In this document: one piece after another, positions 39,140 through 49,326 of the stretch
How positions within the stretch are numbered: position 1 is the first letter of the stretch
Layout: the number at the start of each line of letters is the position of its first letter
Source of the DNA: Parvularcula marina
GTDB lineage: Bacteria > Pseudomonadota > Alphaproteobacteria > Caulobacterales > Parvularculaceae
Assembly (NCBI RefSeq): GCF_003399445.1
Contig: NZ_QUQO01000001.1
Span: 2,415,001-2,479,000 of the forward strand
Length of the DNA stretch: 64,000 nt
Reading direction: 5' to 3'
Made by a program: the position numbers and the translations under genes
Notes under the pieces: generated by a model
Told to the model about the DNA's origin: nothing
Seen by the model: the letters and a program-made list of their open reading frames with translations, nothing else
The model's database searches: none

Positions 39140-40282
39140 ATGATGAACGCTGTGGCCCAGGACCCCGATAATTCGGAGGAAAAGAAAGGCAGAGCCCCTG
39201 AAATCCAGCGGGCTGAGCTTGCCAGTCGGCTCGTCGATGTCCTGTCTCTGCCTGCCGGGCAGATGAACGAGAATGAACGCGCCTTCACCGCGGACATTCT
39301 CGACCAGCTGTTCGATCACGTGCCTCTCAAGGTGAAGATCGACATCAGCACGCGGCTGTCCCGGGTTCTTGCCCCGCCAGCGCTCCTCCTGCGCCGGATG
39401 CTGCTCGAGCAGATCGAGGTTGCGACCCCGCTCCTCAAAGAACTCAAGGAAATCACGGATGTCCAGCTGATAGAAGTTGCTGGCGTCAGCGTTGCGCACC
39501 GTCAGGTGATCGCCCGCCGCCTGAAGCTGAATGAGGCCGTCATTGATAGCCTGCTCAGCTATCCGGATATCGAAGTTGTGCTGCACCTGCTGCAGCGCCC
39601 GGATGTCCGTATCGGCGAGCGCCGCCTTGATGAGCTGGTTGCGATGACCGAGGAGAATTACGTCCTGCGCGAGCCGCTCCTGACCCGTCGAGAGCTGACG
39701 CCGCGCCACGGCTTCACGATGTTCTGGTGGCTCGACCGGCCGGCGCGGCGCAAAGTGCTTTCGCGTTTCGCAATGGACCGTTCGGTGCTGCAGGACGCGC
39801 TGAAGAACCTCTATTGCGAGGTCTTCCCGGATCCAGAACCCGATCCCGTGACAAAAGGCGTTCTCAAGCTTTGTGACCGCCGCCACCGGGCGAGGGGCCC
39901 AAATGGTGAGACGGTCTCGCTCGAGGTCGTCCAGAAAACCTTCACCAACGCCTTTGCCAATCCTACGCCAGAGCTCTGCATGGCGGTCGGCTTCATGGCA
40001 GGCGTCTCCTCCGAGACGGCAAAGCGGATTCTCTTTGATCGCGGCGGCGAGCCTTTCGCGGTCATGTGCAAGTCGGCCGGGATGTCGCGGAGTGATTTCT
40101 CCGACCTTCTGGTGCGGGCACGGCTGATTCGGGACCCGGAAAGCCGGGGGCCGGAGGTCTCCGAGCAGGATTGTGAATATCTTCTCGGGATTTTCGACAT
40201 GATGGCCCGCGACTACTCGCGCACGGCGCTCAGATATTGGGATTGGCGGCGCGGAATTCAGCTCGATCCGCTCGGCGATTAG
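39140..40282 (+). CDS. DUF2336 domain protein
   Basis: A 380-residue soluble helical protein. DUF2336 (PF10098) is a mainly alphaproteobacterial family of helical repeats, visible here in the long run of LxxLLL-type helices (LRRMLLEQIEVATPLLKEL, HLLQRPDVRIGERRLDELV). Some Caulobacter members have been implicated in cell-cycle-linked gene control, but the biochemical role is unknown. Its C-terminus contains YLLGIFDMMARDYSRTAL. A second DUF2336-like gene lies near 63 kb. Confidence 0.8.
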   Translation: MMNAVAQDPDNSEEKKGRAPEIQRAELASRLVDVLSLPAGQMNENERAFTADILDQLFDHVPLKVKIDISTRLSRVLAPPALLLRRMLLEQIEVATPLLKELKEITDVQLIEVAGVSVAHRQVIARRLKLNEAVIDSLLSYPDIEVVLHLLQRPDVRIGERRLDELVAMTEENYVLREPLLTRRELTPRHGFTMFWWLDRPARRKVLSRFAMDRSVLQDALKNLYCEVFPDPEPDPVTKGVLKLCDRRHRARGPNGETVSLEVVQKTFTNAFANPTPELCMAVGFMAGVSSETAKRILFDRGGEPFAVMCKSAGMSRSDFSDLLVRARLIRDPESRGPEVSEQDCEYLLGIFDMMARDYSRTALRYWDWRRGIQLDPLGD

Positions 40283-40447: not shown

Positions 40448-40999
40448 ATGCTCAGAAACCTTGTCAGACAGGCCGGACGTCCGCTGGCATTGGGCCTGAG
40501 CCTGTTTGCGCTCTGGCTGCTGCTGTCGGGATATTTCACCCATGCGACGCTGCTTTGCTTTGGCGTGGCGAGCGTGATGCTCACAGTCTGGCTCTCTGAC
40601 CGTGCGGGCGTCATGGATGGCGAAGGTGTGCCGACCCGCGTCTTCCCCGGTATCGTCACTTACATGCTCTGGCTGACATTCGAGATCGGCAAGGCGAATA
40701 TCGCCGTTGCCCGCGAGGTCCTCCGCCCGAAGCTGAAACTCTCGCCGAAGATGATCCACATTCCCGCCCGACAGGCGAGCGATCTGGGCAAAACCATTTT
40801 TGGCAACTCGATCACGCTGACGCCGGGCACGGTGACGATCGATCTGCATGACGACAGTATTCTCGTTCACGCGCTGACCGAAGACCTCGCTGATGTCGAG
40901 GGGATCATCTCGATGGGCGAAAAGGTTTGCGCCTTTGATGGCGAAGAGGGCCGGGATTGGGCCCGCAATCGCAAGAATGGCGGGGAGGGCGCATCCTGA
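40448..40999 (+). CDS. mrpE: Cation/proton antiporter subunit E (MrpE/MbhA)
   Basis: A 183-residue inner-membrane subunit with two N-terminal helices (LALGLSLFALWLLLSGYF) and a cytosolic C-domain carrying PARQASDLGKTIFGNSITLTPGTV split across the conserved family block, followed by the LVHALTEDLADVEGI region. MrpE is required for assembly or activity of the complex. It is the first of ten overlapping genes; its stop shares one base with the next start. Confidence 0.93.
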   Translation: MLRNLVRQAGRPLALGLSLFALWLLLSGYFTHATLLCFGVASVMLTVWLSDRAGVMDGEGVPTRVFPGIVTYMLWLTFEIGKANIAVAREVLRPKLKLSPKMIHIPARQASDLGKTIFGNSITLTPGTVTIDLHDDSILVHALTEDLADVEGIISMGEKVCAFDGEEGRDWARNRKNGGEGAS

Positions 41000-41319
41000 T
41001 GTTTGTTGCTGCCGCCGCTGCCATTGTAGTCGGGATGGTCATCGTCCTTGCCCGCGCCATTGCCGGGCCGACGCTTTATGACCGTGTGCTCGCGGTCAAC
41101 TCCTTCGGTACCAAGACAGTCCTTCTCCTCGCCGTTGTCTTCTTCATGGCGGGGCGGCCGGAATTTCTCGATGTCGCGCTGCTCTATGCGCTGCTCAATT
41201 TCGTGGCGACCATCGCGATCCTGAAATTCTTCCGTTACGAAGCGCTTTCTCCTGTCATGGAAGGCGGCGCACTTGCCGAAAATCCCGGCACGGATATGGG
41301 AGGGCCGACCGAGTCATGA
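40999..41319 (+). CDS. mrpF: Cation/proton antiporter subunit F (MrpF/MbhB)
   Basis: A 106-residue three-helix membrane protein. The conserved IAGPTLYDRVLAVN motif, with its buried aspartate, lies between helices 1 and 2, and DVALLYALLNFVATIAI follows. This is the typical MrpF pattern. Stop and start codons overlap on both sides (TGATG and ATGA). Confidence 0.93.
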   Translation: MFVAAAAAIVVGMVIVLARAIAGPTLYDRVLAVNSFGTKTVLLLAVVFFMAGRPEFLDVALLYALLNFVATIAILKFFRYEALSPVMEGGALAENPGTDMGGPTES

Positions 41320-41678
41320 GCGGCATTCTCGATATTCTCTCCTGGATCCTGTTTGTCGCTGGCGGCGGGCTTGTCGTCATTGGCGCGATCGGTGTCTGGC
41401 GGTTCCCGGATTTCTATACCCGTCTGCATGCCGCAGGCGTGACGGACACATTCGGGGCGGACCTCGTTCTTCTGGCACTTGCGCTGCAGGCGGATAATTT
41501 CCTGATCGTGGTCAAGCTGCTCTTCATTTTCATCTTCCTTGTGCTCACGAGCCCTGTTTCGACCCATGCTGTCGCGCACGCAGCTTTGGTCGGTGGGTTG
41601 AAGCCGAAGCTTGGGTCTGACCTGCACACCGCGAAGACCGCAGCGGAAGCGCGCGGAGAGACGGGAGGCGGCGCATGA
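41316..41678 (+). CDS. mrpG: Cation/proton antiporter subunit G (MrpG/MbhC)
   Basis: A 120-residue three-helix subunit with the signature VWRFPDFYTRLHAAGVTDTF, diagnostic of MrpG, and SPVSTHAVAHAAL in the last helix. The C-terminal 30 residues are hydrophilic. It overlaps its neighbours by four bases on either side (ATGA). Confidence 0.94.
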   Translation: MSGILDILSWILFVAGGGLVVIGAIGVWRFPDFYTRLHAAGVTDTFGADLVLLALALQADNFLIVVKLLFIFIFLVLTSPVSTHAVAHAALVGGLKPKLGSDLHTAKTAAEARGETGGGA

Positions 41679-42370
41679 GCCCTGTGGACGCGACGACAGT
41701 TGCTTACGAAGCGCATGTCTCTCCGACTTTCCTGCTCGACCTTTCGTTGCTCGCCATGCTGGTCGCTTGCGCCTTTGCCATGGTCACCCAGCGGCGTCTT
41801 TTTGCCGTTGCCATGCTGTCGGGCGTTTACAGCTTCGTCTCCGCTCTCTTCTTTGTGCTGATGGATGCTGTCGATGTGGCATTCACAGAAGCTGCGGTGG
41901 GCGCGGGCGTCTCGACCGTCCTGGTCCTTTCAGGGATGGCGCTTGCCTCCCGGCGGGAAGCGCCGGTGTCCAAACAGCGTAAGATCCTGCCTCTGCTGGT
42001 CGTTGCGATTGTTGGGGCAGCGCTGATCTACGCATCATTCGATCTGCCCGCATTGGGAGATCCGAACAGCCCTGCAAACTCTTATGTCGGCATGGCGTAT
42101 ATCGATGTCTCACCCACCGACATCACTGTGCCGAACATCGTCACCGGCGTTCTCGCCAGCTATCGCGGCTATGACACGATGGGCGAGGTGCTGGTCGTCT
42201 TCACCGCAGGCCTTGCCTGTCTGATGCTGCTCGGCGCTGGCTCGATCAGGGGCGGGCGCCGCGTTTCCGATCAGGCGCCACCGACTCCGCTAATCGAAGC
42301 CCAACACACCTTTGAGCAGGAAATGAAGGCGCGGGCCGACCACCCAGAAGCGGGGGAGGAGCGCACATGA
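41675..42370 (+). CDS. Fused MbhD/MbhE-like subunit (MrpA C-terminal region)
   Basis: A 231-residue membrane protein combining two modules that in classical Mrp form the C-terminal part of the large MrpA. The first module (DUF4040/MbhD) has VAFTEAAVGAGVSTVLVLSGM, and the second (MbhE/MrpB N-terminal-like) has PNIVTGVLASYRGYDTMGEVLVVF. In archaeal Mbh complexes the corresponding units are separate genes, D and E. Their fusion here, without an attached NuoL-like domain, indicates an MbhD/E-type subunit. A cytosolic tail (HTFEQEMKARADH) completes the protein. Confidence 0.85.
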   Translation: MSPVDATTVAYEAHVSPTFLLDLSLLAMLVACAFAMVTQRRLFAVAMLSGVYSFVSALFFVLMDAVDVAFTEAAVGAGVSTVLVLSGMALASRREAPVSKQRKILPLLVVAIVGAALIYASFDLPALGDPNSPANSYVGMAYIDVSPTDITVPNIVTGVLASYRGYDTMGEVLVVFTAGLACLMLLGAGSIRGGRRVSDQAPPTPLIEAQHTFEQEMKARADHPEAGEERT

Positions 42371-42810
42371 TGGGCCACGTCATCCTCCGCGTGACGATCA
42401 AGCTATTGTTCGCGCCGATCATCCTTTTTGCGCTCTATGTGCAGTTCCATGGCGATTACGGTCCAGGCGGCGGCTTTCAGGCTGGCGTGGTTCTCGCGGT
42501 TGCTTTCGTTCTCCATGCGCTCGGCTTCGGTATCGAGGCGACCAAGAAAGTCATTTCACCGAATATCCTGCCCTGGGGCATGGCACTCGGTGTCCTCTTC
42601 TATGCAGGGACCGGCGTGCTGACGCTTCTTCTGGGGGCGAACTTCCTCGAATACGATATTCTTGCACCGGACAGCCACCACAACGCGGGCCAGCATATGG
42701 GGATCCTGTTCGTTGAATTCGGCGTCGGGCTCGCCGTTGCCTCGACCATGCTGCAGATTTTTTACGTTTTCACAGGGCGCGACCCCGAACCCGCGGATGA
42801 CGCCTGGTAG
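42367..42810 (+). CDS. mrpB: Cation/proton antiporter subunit B (MrpB/MbhF)
   Basis: A 147-residue membrane protein with four helices and the MnhB signature YVQFHGDYGPGGGFQAGVVL, including the H-G-x-x-x-P-G-G-G-F-Q core, and HMGILFVEFGVGLAVASTM. MrpB is conserved in all Mrp-type complexes. Four-base overlap with the previous gene; four bases separate it from subunit C. Confidence 0.94.
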   Translation: MMGHVILRVTIKLLFAPIILFALYVQFHGDYGPGGGFQAGVVLAVAFVLHALGFGIEATKKVISPNILPWGMALGVLFYAGTGVLTLLLGANFLEYDILAPDSHHNAGQHMGILFVEFGVGLAVASTMLQIFYVFTGRDPEPADDAW

Positions 42811-42814
42811 ACCG

Positions 42815-43672
42815 ATGATCGATTTTATCCTTGCCAGATATAACTATTGGATCGTCATCATCCTGATGCTGACGGGGCTCTATATCGTTTATTCGCGAGG
42901 CAATCTCGTGAAGACGGTTATCGGGCTGAACGTCTTCCAGACCTCTGTTTTCATTTTCTACATCACGCTGGGGAAAGTCGTCGGCGGTACGGCGCCAATC
43001 CTGCTGGGCGCGCATAGCGCAGGCCATGGTGGGCCCAGCGCACGCGGCGCGGCGGGCGGCGATCATGGCGATGGTCATGGTGCAGACGGTCATGACACTG
43101 GTGGGCACGGTGAGGACCATGCCGCTGACCCGCATCAGGCGGCCTCTAGCCATGAGGCCCCGGTCCATGCGGATGTCCAGCACGGCACACCGCTTACTGA
43201 GGAAGAGGCGCTCGAAGTCCTCTCGGGGCAGATGTCGAATTCGCTGGAGCCGAATGCGGCAGGCGATGTCTCAGGCCAGAGTGATGTACCCGCCGAGAGC
43301 CTTCATGATTTCTCCGAAATTGACGCCTCGAACTCGCTGACCCCGCAAATGCCGGACACACATGAGCCGGCACCTGTCGACCCCGGCATCACCATCACGC
43401 CGGGCGGGCATGAAACGGCGGCCGATCCTCAGGCCGCGCTCGATGCCGGGCATGAAGCGATGACCCATGCAGCAGAGGTCGTTTATTCAAACCCGCTGCC
43501 GCATGTGCTGATCCTGACAGCGATTGTCGTCGGCGTTGCAACGACCGCAGTGGGGCTCGCCCTCGCGGTGCGCATCCGCGAAGCCTATGGCACGATCGAG
43601 GAAGATGCGCTGGAGCGCATGGACAATGAGGCCGCGACCGGGTCTCCCACCGGGGAGGGCGGCAAGGCGTGA
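42815..43672 (+). CDS. mrpC: Cation/proton antiporter subunit C (MrpC/MbhG) with His-rich insertion
   Basis: A 285-residue NuoK/MrpC-type subunit, where family members are usually 100-150 residues. Helices 1 and 2 (WIVIILMLTGLYIVYSRGN, VKTVIGLNVFQTSVFIFYI) and helix 3 (NPLPHVLILTAIVVGVATT) fit MrpC. Between helices 2 and 3, however, lies an insertion of about 155 residues (66-220), rich in His, Asp, Gly and Glu, with 16 histidines, e.g. HGDGHGADGHDTGGHGEDHA. The second half of the insertion is acidic rather than His-rich. It is in frame with neighbours and uses normal codons, so it is not a frameshift product. The insertion faces whichever side of the membrane the helix 2-3 loop does. Confidence 0.9.
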   Translation: MIDFILARYNYWIVIILMLTGLYIVYSRGNLVKTVIGLNVFQTSVFIFYITLGKVVGGTAPILLGAHSAGHGGPSARGAAGGDHGDGHGADGHDTGGHGEDHAADPHQAASSHEAPVHADVQHGTPLTEEEALEVLSGQMSNSLEPNAAGDVSGQSDVPAESLHDFSEIDASNSLTPQMPDTHEPAPVDPGITITPGGHETAADPQAALDAGHEAMTHAAEVVYSNPLPHVLILTAIVVGVATTAVGLALAVRIREAYGTIEEDALERMDNEAATGSPTGEGGKA

Positions 43673-45168
43673 ATATTATCGAACAGCTTCCCGTGCTGCC
43701 GGTTGTCCTTCCGCTGGTGGCAGCTCCCATCTGTGTGCTGCTGCCGAAGGGCAATCTGCCCTGGGCGTTTGCAACCTTTATTTCGGTGCTGACCTTTATC
43801 CTGTCGCTGATGCTTCTGCGCGAAGTTCATGCGGTCGGAGTTATTGAGTACCAACTCGGCAACTGGCCGTCGCCATACGGGATCATCTACCGGATCGACA
43901 TGGTCTCAGCGCTGATCATCACGCTTGTATCCGGTATCGCCGCCACGGTTTTCCCTTACGCCAAGCAGAGCGTCGCGAGAGAGATCGCTCATCAGCAAAC
44001 GTCTTTCTTCTATGGCATGATGCTGATCACCTTTGCGGGCCTCCTTGGCGTCGTCGCAACGGGGGATGCGTTCAACGTCTTTGTCTTCCTCGAGATTTCC
44101 TCGCTCTCGACCTATACGCTGGTCGCGATGGGCGCGCGGCAGGACCGCCGGGCTTTAACCGCAGCCTTTACCTATCTCGTGCTCGGGACGATCGGGGCGA
44201 CCTTCTTTGTGATCGGGCTCGGCCTTCTTTATGCGGCCACCGGTACGCTCAACATGATCGACCTGCATGAGCGGTTGGTCGGTATGGACAACAAGGTCGT
44301 CCGTGCAGGGTTTGCTTTCATCATCACGGGCTTCGGTCTGAAGCTTGCGATGTTCCCGCTGCATCGCTGGCTGCCCGACGCCTACACATTCGCGCCTTCA
44401 GCCGTGACGAGCTTCCTGGCCGCAACAGCGACCAAGGTGGCTGTCTATGTGATGCTGCGCTTCGTCTTCACGGTGTTCGGCTTCTCCTTCGTCTTCCTCG
44501 ATGTCGCGCTGACCTTCTTCATCATCCTCGGCCTTGCGGGCATGTTCATCGCCTCGCTGGTCGCGGTCTTCCGGGATGATGTGAAGCAGATGCTCGCTTA
44601 TTCATCAGTGGCACAGATCGGCTACATGCTGGTCGGCATCTCCTTTGCGACCGTCGAAGGGGTCTCGGCGGCGCTCGTGCACGTCTTCAACCACGCGCTG
44701 ATGAAGGCCGCGCTCTTCATGGCCGTCGGCGCTGTCTTCTATGCCATTGGTTCGCACCGGATCTCGGCCTTCCGCGGGCTGGGCAAGACGATGCCGTTCA
44801 CGGCGGCCTGTTTCGTCGTTGCGGGCCTCTCCCTCGTCGGCGTGCCGTTCACTGGCGGCTTTGTCTCTAAATACCTGCTCATCGATGGCGCCTTCTCGGC
44901 AGTGCTCGATGTGCCTTCGCTCGTCATCGTGCTGATGATTGTCGCCTCATCGCTGCTCGCCGTCGCCTATATCGGCCGGGTCGTTTATGAGATGTATCTT
45001 GCCGAGCCTGTCGAAGGGGTGAAGGTCGATCGCGTGCCGCTGGGCATGCTGATCCCGCTTGGGTTCATGACGGCGGCGAATGTCTATGCAGGGCTCGATG
45101 CGGAGGGGCTGACGACATACGCCCGCCGTGCAGCGGATATCCTGCTTGGTGTGGGGATGGCTGAATAA
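43669..45168 (+). CDS. mrpD: Antiporter-type subunit D-1 (MrpD/MbhH)
   Basis: A 499-residue, about 14-helix NuoL/M/N-type proton pump subunit. The key acidic residue is in NVFVFLEISSLSTYTLVAMG and the helix 7 lysine in GFGLKLAMFPLHRWLPDAY; AVTSFLAATATKVAVYVM adds the TM8 lysine. It starts at GTG (43669), which shares four bases with the previous stop. The gene order places it as the MrpD/MbhH counterpart. Confidence 0.93.
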   Translation: MNIIEQLPVLPVVLPLVAAPICVLLPKGNLPWAFATFISVLTFILSLMLLREVHAVGVIEYQLGNWPSPYGIIYRIDMVSALIITLVSGIAATVFPYAKQSVAREIAHQQTSFFYGMMLITFAGLLGVVATGDAFNVFVFLEISSLSTYTLVAMGARQDRRALTAAFTYLVLGTIGATFFVIGLGLLYAATGTLNMIDLHERLVGMDNKVVRAGFAFIITGFGLKLAMFPLHRWLPDAYTFAPSAVTSFLAATATKVAVYVMLRFVFTVFGFSFVFLDVALTFFIILGLAGMFIASLVAVFRDDVKQMLAYSSVAQIGYMLVGISFATVEGVSAALVHVFNHALMKAALFMAVGAVFYAIGSHRISAFRGLGKTMPFTAACFVVAGLSLVGVPFTGGFVSKYLLIDGAFSAVLDVPSLVIVLMIVASSLLAVAYIGRVVYEMYLAEPVEGVKVDRVPLGMLIPLGFMTAANVYAGLDAEGLTTYARRAADILLGVGMAE

Positions 45169-46658
45169 TGACCCCGAACGACGCCCTTCTCATTGCGCTC
45201 TTCCTGCCCGTCATCGGGGCCTTCGGCATCATGCTGACAGGCAAGCACCCGAATGTCCGCGAGAGCCTGATCCTCGTCATGGCCGTTGCCACCTTCTTCT
45301 TTGTGCTGATGGTGGCGCGCGCAACGGCTGCTGGAGACCTTGCCGATGTCACCCTGTTCGAGGTGATGCCCGGCCTCTCGATCAGCTTCAAGCTCGAGCC
45401 GCTTGGCGCGATGTTCGCGGTGATTGCGAGTGGGCTCTATATCGTCAATTCGCTCTATTCGATCGGCTATATGCGCGGCACGAATGAGAAGAATCAGACG
45501 CGGTTCTATGTCTGTTTCGCGATCGCCATTTCCGCCGCGCTGGGGATCGCCTTTGCCGGCAACCTGCTCACCTTCTTCACCTTCTATGAGATCCTGACCC
45601 TCTCCACCTTCCCGCTGGTGACGCATAAGGGCGATGCCAAGGCGCGGGCCGGAGGCCGGGTCTATCTTGGCATCCTGATGGGGACATCGATCGGGCTTCT
45701 TCTGCCTGCGATCATCTGGACCTGGGTAATGACAGGGACGACGGATTTCGTGGCCGGCGGTATTCTGGGCGATGCGGCCGATTTCCGCAGCTGGGTTCCG
45801 GTCGTCCTCCTCGGGCTTTACCTCTTCGGTATTGGCAAGGCGGCGCTGATGCCGATCCATCCATGGCTGCCCAATGCCATGGTCGCGCCGACACCTGTTT
45901 CCGCTTTCCTCCACGCCGTTGCGGTCGTGAAGGCAGGCGTCTTCGGTGTGCTGAAAATTGCGGTTTATACGTTTGGCATCGACACCTTGCGTGAAACCAA
46001 TATCAGCGAGATTTTCATGTGGATTGCGGCAGGCTCGATCCTGCTGGCTTCCGCTATCGCCATGACGCAGGACAACCTCAAGGCGCGGCTTGCCTATTCG
46101 ACGGTCAGCCAGCTTTCCTATGTCACGCTTGGCGCGATGATCGCGACAAATCTCGGTGTCATGGGCGGCGCGATGCAGATTGCAGCGCACGCGCTCGGCA
46201 AGATGACTCTCTTCATGTGCGCAGGCGCGATCTATGTCGCCCACCACAAGACGCTGGTGTCCGAGATGCGCGGTCTTGGCCGGTTGATGCCTTTCACCTT
46301 TGGCGCATTCTTCATCGGGGCGATGTCGATTGTTGGCCTGCCGCCCATGGCAGGGTCATGGCCGAAATTTTTCCTGATGCTGGGCGCCGTTGATGCGGGA
46401 CAGCTGGCGATCATTGCGGTGCTGATCATCTCGTCGCTGCTCAATGTGGTCTATCTCTTGTCGATCCCTGTGAAGGCGTTCTTTGGCAAGCCGGCAGGCG
46501 AGGCACAGCCCGCACCGATTGGGTGGAAGACGCTTCAGGAGGCGCCGATCTTCTGTCTTGTACCGCCGCTTCTTACTGCCGCAGGGACGATCATCCTCTT
46601 CTTCTATTCGGACCCGCTCTTTAATTTCCTCTTGCCACTGATTGGCGGTGCGGGATGA
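45168..46658 (+). CDS. Antiporter-type subunit D-2 (MrpD/MrpA N-terminal-like)
   Basis: A 496-residue NuoL/M-type proton-conducting subunit. The conserved glutamate is in FFTFYEILTLSTFPLVTHK and the lysine in GIGKAALMPIHPWLPNAMV; the second lysine region reads AVAVVKAGVFGVLK. It is not a copy of the preceding subunit, having quite different sequence (e.g. GDAKARAGGRVYLGILMG). Starts within the previous stop (TAATG). It may replace the NuoL-like N-terminal half of MrpA, missing as a single large protein here. Confidence 0.9.
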   Translation: MTPNDALLIALFLPVIGAFGIMLTGKHPNVRESLILVMAVATFFFVLMVARATAAGDLADVTLFEVMPGLSISFKLEPLGAMFAVIASGLYIVNSLYSIGYMRGTNEKNQTRFYVCFAIAISAALGIAFAGNLLTFFTFYEILTLSTFPLVTHKGDAKARAGGRVYLGILMGTSIGLLLPAIIWTWVMTGTTDFVAGGILGDAADFRSWVPVVLLGLYLFGIGKAALMPIHPWLPNAMVAPTPVSAFLHAVAVVKAGVFGVLKIAVYTFGIDTLRETNISEIFMWIAAGSILLASAIAMTQDNLKARLAYSTVSQLSYVTLGAMIATNLGVMGGAMQIAAHALGKMTLFMCAGAIYVAHHKTLVSEMRGLGRLMPFTFGAFFIGAMSIVGLPPMAGSWPKFFLMLGAVDAGQLAIIAVLIISSLLNVVYLLSIPVKAFFGKPAGEAQPAPIGWKTLQEAPIFCLVPPLLTAAGTIILFFYSDPLFNFLLPLIGGAG

Positions 46659-46683: not shown

Positions 46684-47010
46684 ATGAGCGATCCCCAGAA
46701 CAATCCTCACGAGGAGCATGGTCACGGGCCGCGCCCCGGCGAGAAGAAATACTGGCTCGACAATCCGAAGAATGTCGACCTGATCTGGTACGCGCTGGCT
46801 GGCGCCTGTTTTCTGCTGTTTGTCGCCGATTTCTTCGTGGAGAAGCATCCGCATTTTCCGATTGAGGAGTGGGTGAACTTTTATGGCTTTTACGGCTTCA
46901 TCGGTTGCGTCTTCCTCGTGCTTGCCGCGGCCCAGCTGCGCAAAGTGCTTATGCGTGACGAGGATTATTACGAGCGCAAAAGCGATGAAGACGGGAAGGG
47001 TCAGCAATGA
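46684..47010 (+). CDS. Small two-helix membrane protein of the antiporter operon
   Basis: A 108-residue protein with a His/Pro-rich N-terminus (NPHEEHGHGPRPGEK), two membrane helices (LIWYALAGACFLLFVADFF, NFYGFYGFIGCVFLVLAAA) and a charged tail (LMRDEDYYERKSDED). Similar unnamed proteins occur next to Mrp/Mbh-type subunits in other bacteria, so it is a probable accessory subunit. It overlaps the next start by four bases (ATGA), arguing that it is part of the complex. Confidence 0.8.
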   Translation: MSDPQNNPHEEHGHGPRPGEKKYWLDNPKNVDLIWYALAGACFLLFVADFFVEKHPHFPIEEWVNFYGFYGFIGCVFLVLAAAQLRKVLMRDEDYYERKSDEDGKGQQ

Positions 47011-48764
47011 TCGGTGAACTCTCTCCCGCTCTGATCGTCATTATCGGCTCGGCACTGACGGTGTTCTTCCCCGGCGGTTGGCCGCGCAACATTTTCTCAC
47101 TCGCCGTCATCGCGCTTGCGGGATATCAGCTCCATGCACTCGGTCTCGGTGAATACGGACAATATTCGCTTTTCGGCGAAACCCTGACGCTCACCCGCAT
47201 TGATGGCCTTGCCCGCATTTTCGCGGTGATCTTCCTGATCGCGATGGCGCTCAACACGGTCTATGGCTGGTGGTTGCGTGACGCAGGGCAGCAGGCCGTA
47301 TCGCTGGCCTATCCCGGTGCGGCGCTCGGCGGGGTGCTGGCAGGCGATCTTGTGACGCTGTTTGTCTTCTGGGAGCTGGCCGCGATTACGTCCGTGTTCC
47401 TCATCTGGGCCGGAAATAACGAGCGCTCCTTTGGCGCAGGGATGCGCTACCTTGTCTGGCAGATCGGGTCTGGCGTTCTGCTGCTTGCCGGTATTGCCCT
47501 TTTCTACCGCTCGACAGGATCGTTCGCGTTCGAGAACTTCATCGATGGCGGCATGTCACTGACCGATCCGGCCGTGCTGTGCATCTTCATCGCCTTTGGG
47601 ATCAAGTCAGCGTTCCCGCTGCTCCATAACTGGGTGCAGGACGCCTATCCCGAAAGTACGGTGACCGGCACAATCATCTTGTCTGTCTTCACGACCAAGA
47701 TGGCGGTTGCGTCGATTGCGCGCGGCTTCGCCGGGGTGGAAGCACTGGTTTATATCGGCGCGGTCATGACGGCGTTCCCGATTTTCTTCGCGGTGATCGA
47801 GAACGATTTGCGCCGGGTTCTGACCTATTCGCTGAACAACCAGGTCGGCTTCATGATCGTCGGCATTGGCATCGGCACGCCGATGGCCTTGAACGGCGCG
47901 GCGGGCTACGCCTTCTGTAACATCCTCTTCGAGGGCCTATTGTTCATGGCCATGGGGGCGGTGCTTTACCGGACCGGCACGATCAAGGGCTCTGAGCTAG
48001 GCGGGCTTTATAAGACCATGCCGCTCACCGCATTTTTCTGCATCATTGGAGCAGCGTCGATCTCGGCATTCCCTCTGTTCTCAGGCTTCATCACCAAGGG
48101 CCTGATCATCAGCGGCGCGGCGGAAGGACATTATTTCTGGGTCTGGATGACGCTGTTGTTCGCAGCCGCTGGTGTGTTCCACCATTCGGGGATCAAGATT
48201 CCGTACTTTGCCTTCTTCGCTCATGATTCAGGCAAACGTCCTGACGAAGCACCGCTCTCCATGCTGATTGCCATGGGGATCACAGCGGCGCTCTGCGTCG
48301 GTATCGGTGTGGCGCAGATATTCACCGGGCCTGAAGGCGATCCGCTCTATGCGCTGATGCCGTTCGAGGTGGTGATCGAGAAATCCTACTCGCCCTATAT
48401 CTCCTATACGGCGCCGCACGTCCTCACCCAGATGCAGATCCTGTTCTTCTCAGGTCTGGCATTCGCTGTGCTCCAGAAAACCGGCCTCTATCCGCCGGAG
48501 CTACGGTCGACCAATCTGGATACGGACTGGTTCTACCGCGTGCCGGGGCGGGTTGCGCTGCTCGGTATCGTTGGCGGAGTGGTCGCCCTATGGCGGGCCG
48601 TCTGGGGCGTCACCAAGGGACTCATCGGCGGCGCGGTCAGCGGGCTTTATCACTCCCATGGGCCAGAGGGGCGCATGGCCCGGACCTGGTCGGTGGGGTA
48701 CACGGCCCTCTTCACTGCGATTGTTCTTGGCATCGCGCTGATCGCTGTCTTCAGTGTAAGGTAG
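47007..48764 (+). CDS. Antiporter-type subunit D-3 (long NuoN/NuoM-like)
   Basis: A 585-residue, about 14-16-helix proton-conducting subunit. It has the helix 5 glutamate (LVTLFVFWELAAITSVFLI), the helix 7 lysine (GIKSAFPLLHNWVQDAYPE) and a TTKMAVASIARGF segment. The C-terminal extension of about 100 residues (after 480) adds two more helices and LYHSHGPEGRMART. It is the third antiporter-type subunit of the operon and the most distant in sequence. A terminator follows. Confidence 0.9.
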   Translation: MIGELSPALIVIIGSALTVFFPGGWPRNIFSLAVIALAGYQLHALGLGEYGQYSLFGETLTLTRIDGLARIFAVIFLIAMALNTVYGWWLRDAGQQAVSLAYPGAALGGVLAGDLVTLFVFWELAAITSVFLIWAGNNERSFGAGMRYLVWQIGSGVLLLAGIALFYRSTGSFAFENFIDGGMSLTDPAVLCIFIAFGIKSAFPLLHNWVQDAYPESTVTGTIILSVFTTKMAVASIARGFAGVEALVYIGAVMTAFPIFFAVIENDLRRVLTYSLNNQVGFMIVGIGIGTPMALNGAAGYAFCNILFEGLLFMAMGAVLYRTGTIKGSELGGLYKTMPLTAFFCIIGAASISAFPLFSGFITKGLIISGAAEGHYFWVWMTLLFAAAGVFHHSGIKIPYFAFFAHDSGKRPDEAPLSMLIAMGITAALCVGIGVAQIFTGPEGDPLYALMPFEVVIEKSYSPYISYTAPHVLTQMQILFFSGLAFAVLQKTGLYPPELRSTNLDTDWFYRVPGRVALLGIVGGVVALWRAVWGVTKGLIGGAVSGLYHSHGPEGRMARTWSVGYTALFTAIVLGIALIAVFSVR

Positions 48765-48930: not shown

Positions 48931-49326
48931 ATGTCGAAAGGGCACAGCCACGGGAAAGCCGTGGACTGGCACGCTCTGACGGCTCGTCGCGTGGTGGCAG
49001 GCGAGTTCGGAGTGTCAGTAGAGGAATTAATGGCGCCAACGCGCGCCAGGGCGGAGATTGCGTTCGCCCGGCAGGTGGCGATGTATCTCGCCCATGTCGT
49101 CTATCAGATGTCGTATAATGAGGTGGCGGAAGCCTTCGACCGTGAACGGACGACTGTTGCCTATGCCTGCGCCGTTGTTGAGGACGCGCGGGATGATGCA
49201 GAGCTTGATGCGCGCATGGAGCGGCTCGAAGCGCAGCTGACGCGGCTCGACCGTTTGCGCGAAGGGCGCAGGATCGACCGTTGCGGTCGTCTGGCCATCA
49301 TCCTTGAATGCTGTCCGGCGGGGTGA
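48931..49326 (+). CDS. Orphan DnaA domain IV-like DNA-binding protein
   Basis: A 131-residue soluble protein. Residues about 30-90 correspond to DnaA domain IV: RARAEIAFARQVAMYLAHVV (helices with the phosphate-contacting arginine) and YNEVAEAFDRERTTVAYACA, matching the DnaA signature in which DHTTV reads a DnaA box. Here the recognition positions are E-R-T-T-V. There is no AAA+ domain, so it cannot initiate replication alone; it may compete for DnaA boxes or act as a regulator. A C-terminal helix (ARMERLEAQLTRLDRLREG) might dimerise. The ATG has a nearby GAGGGCTGA. Its end overlaps gluQRS by 29 bases. Confidence 0.78.
   Translation: MSKGHSHGKAVDWHALTARRVVAGEFGVSVEELMAPTRARAEIAFARQVAMYLAHVVYQMSYNEVAEAFDRERTTVAYACAVVEDARDDAELDARMERLEAQLTRLDRLREGRRIDRCGRLAIILECCPAG

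Follow-up and report, generated by a model that had tools for sequence, protein, structure and literature searches.

The mrpC gene of the window (the whole stretch of 64,000 nucleotides of Parvularcula marina DNA analyzed here) shows that a small NuoK-like antiporter subunit, 109 to 117 residues long in four matched PDB sequences, can accommodate a loop that exceeds its core in size. How ions pass through Mrp antiporters and their complex I relatives is described as debated (PMC9568556), and an acid- and histidine-rich loop gained beside the proposed exit, together with a sub-clade in which the loop has shrunk, offers a natural experiment on the ion path. The structure of the gene, the place of the insert, and its spread are established below, and we infer its function.

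The product of mrpC is assigned by sequence models to the MrpC/NuoK-like family, with family models matched on both sides of the insert. Pfam PF00420 (Oxidored_q2) matches two flanking stretches with a score of 67.2 bits (cut-off, 26.1); several NCBIfam MrpC models match, NF005624 (cut-off, 95) likewise in two stretches, and NF005621, at 123.8, falls slightly below its cut-off of 126. In an AlphaFold2 model (26 sequences; mean pLDDT, 60.3), helices at residues 2 to 26, 31 to 54, and 227 to 257, mostly with pLDDT values of 70 to 90, give the three-helix fold. The original prediction had described a small three-helix NuoK-like protein with normal flanking helices and a histidine-rich insertion in the loop between helices 2 and 3, and both parts of this description hold: the interval that it gave, 43010 to 43474, comprises 155 codons inside a 162-residue insert (residues 64 to 225) and includes all 16 of its histidines. 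The reading frame also proved to run intact from ATG to TGA, overlapped by the start of the next gene.

Features of the mrp locus, with positions in the window
Feature	Position	Strand	Basis and remarks
mrpE	40448..40999	+	Pfam
mrpF	40999..41319	+	Pfam match (queried from 41032); putative start, an ATG inside the ORF
mrpG	41316..41678	+	Pfam
MbhD/MbhE-like gene	41675..42370	+	Pfam; MbhD above cut-off, MbhE just below its own
mrpB	42367..42810	+	Pfam
mrpC	42815..43672	+	ATG to TGA, 285 aa; PF00420, 1.1e-18; NF005624, 117.1 bits
TM helices 1 and 2 of MrpC	42815..43003	+	Residues 1-63
Insert	43004..43489	+	Residues 64-225, between APIL and NPLPH; helix 2-helix 3 loop
His-Gly-acid head of insert	43010..43186	+	Residues 66-124; holds 11 of the 16 His
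First SNSL word	43235..43246	+	Residues 141-144; N-x-[LMFI] in excess in family inserts
SLH word	43298..43306	+	Residues 162-164; 97% of 58 rows have His at this alignment column
Second SNSL word	43328..43339	+	Residues 172-175; alignment and word counts
Ala-rich tail	43427..43471	+	Residues 205-219; low-confidence model helix
TM helix 3 and C terminus of MrpC	43490..43672	+	Residues 226-242 align with MrpC 66-82 (7qru_C)
First mrpD-like gene	43669..45168	+	Pfam; GTG start; 4-base overlap with mrpC stop
Second mrpD-like gene	45168..46658	+	Pfam
Small protein	46684..47010	+	No Pfam or NCBIfam match; putative start; between second and third mrpD
Third mrpD-like gene	47007..48764	+	Pfam, NCBIfam

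Besides its 16 His, the insert contains 28 Asp/Glu and a single Lys/Arg by residue count. In the Parvularculaceae insert, a His-Gly-acid head follows helix 2, the SLHxxP, K-I-x-N, and N-x-L words lie in the middle, and an Ala-rich tail leads into helix 3. In the window, the repeated HG words that had been pointed out are HGDGHG and HGEDH, and the SLH word lacks the Pro of SLHxxP. Among the 58 family inserts that could be read, [STAGE]LH occurs in 53 and LHxxP in 44, while K[IVL]xN is missing from 30, that of the window included. Against residue shuffles, in which kinship among the rows is uncorrected, these 58 inserts contain 102 rather than 18 copies of [STAGE]LH, 46 rather than 2 of NDL, 64 rather than 1.4 of K[IVL]xN, and 133 of N-x-[LMFI], for which the shuffle mean is 32. 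Neither LHxxP nor NDL occurs in any of the 113 inserts from two other families of the order; DAAH-type repeats occur in 35 of those 113 loops.

The AlphaFold2 model assigns a pLDDT under 50 to 95 or more of the 162 insert residues and places short helices at residues 129 to 136 and 205 to 219, and the insert is predicted to be mostly disordered, not a folded domain. The statement that no described Mrp with such a domain was known must be reworded to that extent, but its substance agrees with the literature searched: no description of a long MrpC loop was found among the listed titles and abstract openings of open-licence papers. The possibility that the insert is a known domain, or was copied from another place, was considered and rejected, as Pfam matches the core only, the PDB matches are MrpC-type chains, and the insert has no second copy in its own genome (E values up to 10). 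A search of the mrpC gene for inverted repeats found none.

The operon has the order E-F-G-(MbhD/E)-B-C-D-D-small-D by Pfam and NCBIfam and brings B, C, D, E, F, and G together with subunits resembling the C terminus of MrpA. By gene content it is Mrp-type, with Na+(K+)/H+ antiport as its predicted activity. Many outgroup operons have the same gene order as far as their contigs reach, with some subunits unmatched. In MBH, the separate MbhD and MbhE proteins match the MrpA C terminus (PMC7419157), and the operon likewise has an MbhD/MbhE-like protein. No family-specific insert of at least 8 columns was found in E, F, G, MbhDE, B, the three D proteins, or the small protein (10 family rows and 19 to 31 outgroup rows), and Pfam revealed no metal gene among the operon genes. 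The small protein stands at the same place in many outgroup operons from several phyla; it has two hydrophobic stretches, judged by eye, and an HEEHGHG word near its N terminus.

Chain C of 7qru (Bacillus pseudofirmus MrpC) and chain C of 6z16 share the three-helix NuoK-like core, and the two halves of 7qru chain C align at the ends of the insert; the helix 2-3 loop has 8 residues in 7qru chain C and 162 in the window protein. The best PDB sequence matches are chain G of MBS (6u8y; 3.7e-15) and chain G of MBH (6cfw; 2.9e-08), archaeal MrpC relatives of 114 and 117 residues that belong to redox-driven complexes and lack a long helix 2-3 loop. A structural search with the model likewise returned chains of NDH, complex I, MBS, and MBH as its best matches, none with an E value under 0.001, probably because of the insert.

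A phmmer alignment to 7qru chain C equates K33 of the window protein with R27, T43 with H37, F46 with H40, N226 with D66, and H230 with Q70. H37 and H40 form a helix 2 His pair that is called conserved in Mrp and is absent from complex I (PMC7419157). In the window this pair is replaced by Thr and Phe, and no His stands in either column in any of 27 aligned rows, outgroups included; its absence is a trait of this Mrp branch and not of the insert. As Q42 is invariant in the aligned MrpC rows and the pair is missing, the ion site of the branch may differ from that of the studied antiporters.

The same alignment bears on the side of the membrane that the insert occupies. A connection to the cytosol is described near R27 of B. 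pseudofirmus MrpC, and residues 66 to 82 are named among the conserved regions around a proposed periplasmic sodium exit tunnel (PMC9568556). With R27 on the cytosolic side and 66 to 82 at the periplasmic exit in the homologue, the helix 2-3 loop would be periplasmic by homology. The insert ends at N226, which aligns with D66, where the exit region begins, and by homology to solved complexes it probably lies on the periplasmic side, beside the proposed Na+ exit. The periplasmic face over MrpA-N and MrpD carries negative charge, said to help gather protons, and the face above the small Mrp subunits carries positive charge (PMC7419157); the acidic insert departs from the positive-charge pattern reported there for the small subunits.

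Far from being an oddity of one genome, the insert is an order-level trait of highly variable length (17 to 235 aa). The closest named matches are labeled Parvularcula, Marinicaulis, or Parvularculaceae. MrpC was matched in 60 of 62 Parvularculaceae genomes, and all 58 that are readable, P. marina included, have an insert of 90 to 235 aa with 3 to 20 His; two family genomes (L087 and L096) and L063 were left out as unreadable across both halves. A sequencing artefact or frameshift (an artefact being one of two outcomes that would have undone the original prediction) is excluded by the presence of an insert in 58 of 58 readable family genomes. Over the whole order, 188 of 299 sampled genomes gave a match: 59 from the family, 16 weak ones (E above 1e-10), assigned to other Mrp types, and 113 strong ones from outside the family, all of which come from two further families. 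Loops in the latter 113 genomes are 17 to 138 aa long (median, 45) with 0 to 17 His, 16 of them without any. Asp/Glu exceed Lys/Arg in all 58 family rows and in 112 of the 113 rows of the other two families, and pooled Lys/Arg contents are 3.7% and 2.9%, respectively. Matches to mrpB and mrpD lie on the same strand of the fetched stretch in all 113 other-family loci; in the family, the corresponding counts are 57 of 58 for mrpB and 58 of 58 for mrpD.

In the proposed comparison of MrpC length across the Alphaproteobacteria, no insert was seen outside the order among the rows read. A short-loop MrpC query matched 123 of 385 genomes of the class, a sample that included a few genomes of the order. 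In 101 rows from 99 genomes of other alphaproteobacterial orders (E of ≤2.2e-25, rows above this value being other Mrp types that were left out), the net excess over the query was −1 to +7 codons, and these 99 genomes therefore have no insert. The helix 2-3 loop measures 8 to 16 aa in the 30 named-record outgroup loci that could be read. A MAG labeled Klebsiella pneumoniae (L062) also carries this Mrp operon; its MrpC clusters with one from a gammaproteobacterial MAG, and the label may be wrong.

Trees were built on the MrpC core alone, with the insert removed (103 columns), and have many forks unresolved. The insert-bearing families stand together on one side of a branch, with support of 99/94 in a first tree and 100/99 in a thinned tree of 18 family rows and 20 outgroup rows (L038, with its ambiguous, frame-broken end, was left out here and from the structure alignment). 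Parvularculaceae form one group in the first tree (95/90) but not in the thinned tree, where they are grouped in 47% of bootstrap trees. Nested among the insert bearers in the thinned tree is a reduced clade of another family of the order (L193-L197, L217, L219, and L222-L225), whose loops have 17 residues and no His and whose mrpB and mrpD are kept alongside; one member inside it has 20 residues and 3 His. With this nesting, the simplest reading of the 103-column trees would be one gain, much change in length, and one reduction. The loop is dispensable for basic activity, to judge from the 16 His-free rows among 113 and from the clade that keeps mrpB and mrpD with 17 residues and no His, and the reduced clade represents a natural loss experiment.

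Composition was compared with 2,000 shuffles of the window insert that kept codon-position composition. The insert has 16 His against a shuffle mean of 8.6 (maximum, about 20) and 1 Lys/Arg against a mean of 12.6 (minimum, 4); its shortage of Lys/Arg is outside all 2,000 shuffles, and its excess of His is within their range. Among 113 distinct inserts (58 from the family and 55 from the other families, drawn from the best-scoring matches, with His-rich loops over-represented), His is above its own shuffle mean in 97% and Lys/Arg below it in 96%, individually at the 0.05 level in 63% and 53%, respectively. The remaining 58 other-family genomes added short and His-free loops, which weaken the idea that His is obligatory in the loop. 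Insert GC is 9 to 10 points above that of the core.

Selection was followed in 20 nonoverlapping pairs of close relatives with ungapped inserts, as gapped alignments would favor His matches. This set excludes duplicates, inserts shorter than 30 aa, rows that contain N or have a short core, gapped pairs, and pairs with identities below 55% or above 99%; 19 of the pairs come from the two other families and one (L004/L019) from Parvularculaceae, and 8 of the 20 belong to one of the seven genera covered. Insert dN/dS had a median of 0.06 and a maximum of 0.32 (one pair gave no value), compared with 0.01 for the core, an insert estimate that is too low because the pairs were chosen ungapped and at least 55% identical. 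His was the most retained residue, at 96% versus about 84% for the other residues (difference, 0.128; bootstrap over pairs, 0.088 to 0.162), and Arg was kept in 95% of 21 cases; His was kept better than the rest in five of the seven genera but not in g19 and g31, which have 4 His cases in all. In the family itself, 14 nonoverlapping pairs were aligned blind to the tested residue, with gaps counted as losses, and retention was 85% for Lys, 82% for Leu, 78% for His, 72% for Asn, 65% for Ala, 64% for Asp, 59% for Gly, and 57% for Glu. In Parvularculaceae, retention is highest for the residues that make up the conserved words; His is one of these and outranks the remaining common residues. Many of the insert histidines appear to be maintained by selection, and purifying selection is seen within the limits of the pair choice.

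The histidines almost never stand at HxH or HxxH spacing. With HG words kept intact in the shuffles and inserts with fewer than 3 His dropped, the 58 family inserts contain 3 HxH and 5 HxxH where 40 and 39 are expected, and 75 other-family inserts contain 1 and 6 where 50 and 48 are expected. HxxxH is enriched in both sets, as is a spacing of 5 in the family and of 7 in the others. Of the Escherichia coli controls, SlyD shows the HxH spacing 10 times in its richest 60 residues, and ZnuA contains HDH and HHH. The E. coli ZnuA loop and SlyD tail, both of which bind metal, are rich in His and acidic residues like the insert, but their HxH/HHH clusters are nearly absent from it. The insert histidines are thus spread out, unlike those of ZnuA and SlyD. 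Repeat units of 4 or more residues that each contain a single His may partly explain this spacing, which therefore weighs against a chelating design while leaving room for metal binding.

Several functions can be weighed against these results. HxxxH, which allows metal chelation when it falls on a helix, the presence of histidines in every family insert, and their retention above Ala, Gly, Asp, and Glu would suit a periplasmic loop that captures Zn, Ni, or Cu through its His and acidic residues and serves the antiporter as a sink, sensor, or gate, and there is precedent elsewhere for periplasmic loops, disordered and His-rich, with a part in zinc binding (PMC8561739). The deficit of HxH and HxxH sets the insert apart from SlyD and ZnuA, however, Cys occurs in only one family insert of the named-record set (which has two), and the operon genes include no metal gene. 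Metal binding stays a candidate, less favored than the original prediction implied and the least probable function considered here. A permissive surface loop that tolerates repeat expansion, with acidic and small residues kept since basic or hydrophobic ones would harm a membrane protein, would account for the range of lengths within one order, the DAAH-type repeats, the raised GC, and the reduction in one clade. Such a filler would not be expected to show the low insert dN/dS, even allowing for its underestimation by pair choice, the retention of His, only twofold degenerate, above Ala and Gly, the His excess over codon-position shuffles (seen in a biased sample), or the conserved words of Parvularculaceae, and we consider it improbable.

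Those words would fit a docking segment, much as in the extra-subunit option of the original prediction: the middle of the Parvularculaceae insert (SLHxxP, K-I-x-N, and N-x-L) would bind another protein or part of the complex, with the His-rich part as a spacer. The excess of [STAGE]LH, NDL, and K[IVL]xN over shuffles (uncorrected for kinship), the near-constant His of the SLH column, and the fact that Lys, Leu, His, and Asn, the best-kept family residues, are letters of the words all argue for docking, as does MrpC-Q70A, adjoining the loop end, which is reported to keep activity and to lose the monomeric complex on native gels (PMC5703873). As LHxxP and NDL are absent from all 113 other-family inserts, the loop probably did not arise as a docking segment; about half of the family inserts, the window's too, lack K[IVL]xN, any partner is hypothetical, and a search of the window's own genome found no further match to the insert. 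Docking is a doubtful explanation, though it would fit the words of the family.

The reading that we prefer, to which we give a probability of a little over one in three, is that the insert is a periplasmic antenna or buffer for protons and cations. A disordered, strongly acidic, His-bearing loop would hang from the periplasmic face of MrpC at the proposed outer ion mouth, where its Asp/Glu would hold monovalent cations and protons close by and its His could bind and pass on protons at periplasmic pH, and with so few Lys/Arg it would stay away from the anionic membrane. The acidic, His-bearing, base-poor composition is present, and the side of the membrane and closeness to the ion path are predicted from homology; the retention and scatter of His, the position at the exit, and the lack of a family-specific insert in the other subunits also argue for an antenna. 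Proton-collecting surface antennas of bioenergetic proteins are rich in Asp, Glu, and His and lie near a proton path; those known to us are folded surface patches, and none is a 160-residue loop. A search of open-licence literature for a His proton antenna found nothing useful. The original prediction had listed proton buffering at the channel mouth among its options: the periplasmic place by the proposed ion exit agrees with it by homology, and buffering itself is tentatively favored.

Several observations count against an antenna, among them the lack of His in 16 of 113 other-family rows and the shrinking of the loop in one clade. With a His pKa near 6 to 7, most of the histidines would carry no proton at the pH of seawater. 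The close-pair set comes mostly from the other families, and g19 and g31 show no better His retention; in Parvularculaceae, the better retention of Lys and Leu than of His points to the conserved words instead. The positive periplasmic charge reported over the small subunits (PMC7419157) also speaks against it. It is possible, at a lower probability, that a lineage-specific disordered ion antenna was grafted onto a NuoK-like subunit as a tunable periplasmic proton/Na+ buffer, with its length adjusted by evolution and shed by one clade. If so, the effect of an antenna on antiport could be read by comparing close relatives.

The genes that flank the operon recur in the family. Directly after the operon, positions 48931 to 49326 encode a short protein with a DnaA C-terminal helix-turn-helix (PF08299), and a match to it follows the operon in eight of nine named Parvularculaceae loci. 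Upstream of mrpE, positions 39140 to 40282 encode a DUF2336 protein, with a match at that place in six of the nine loci.
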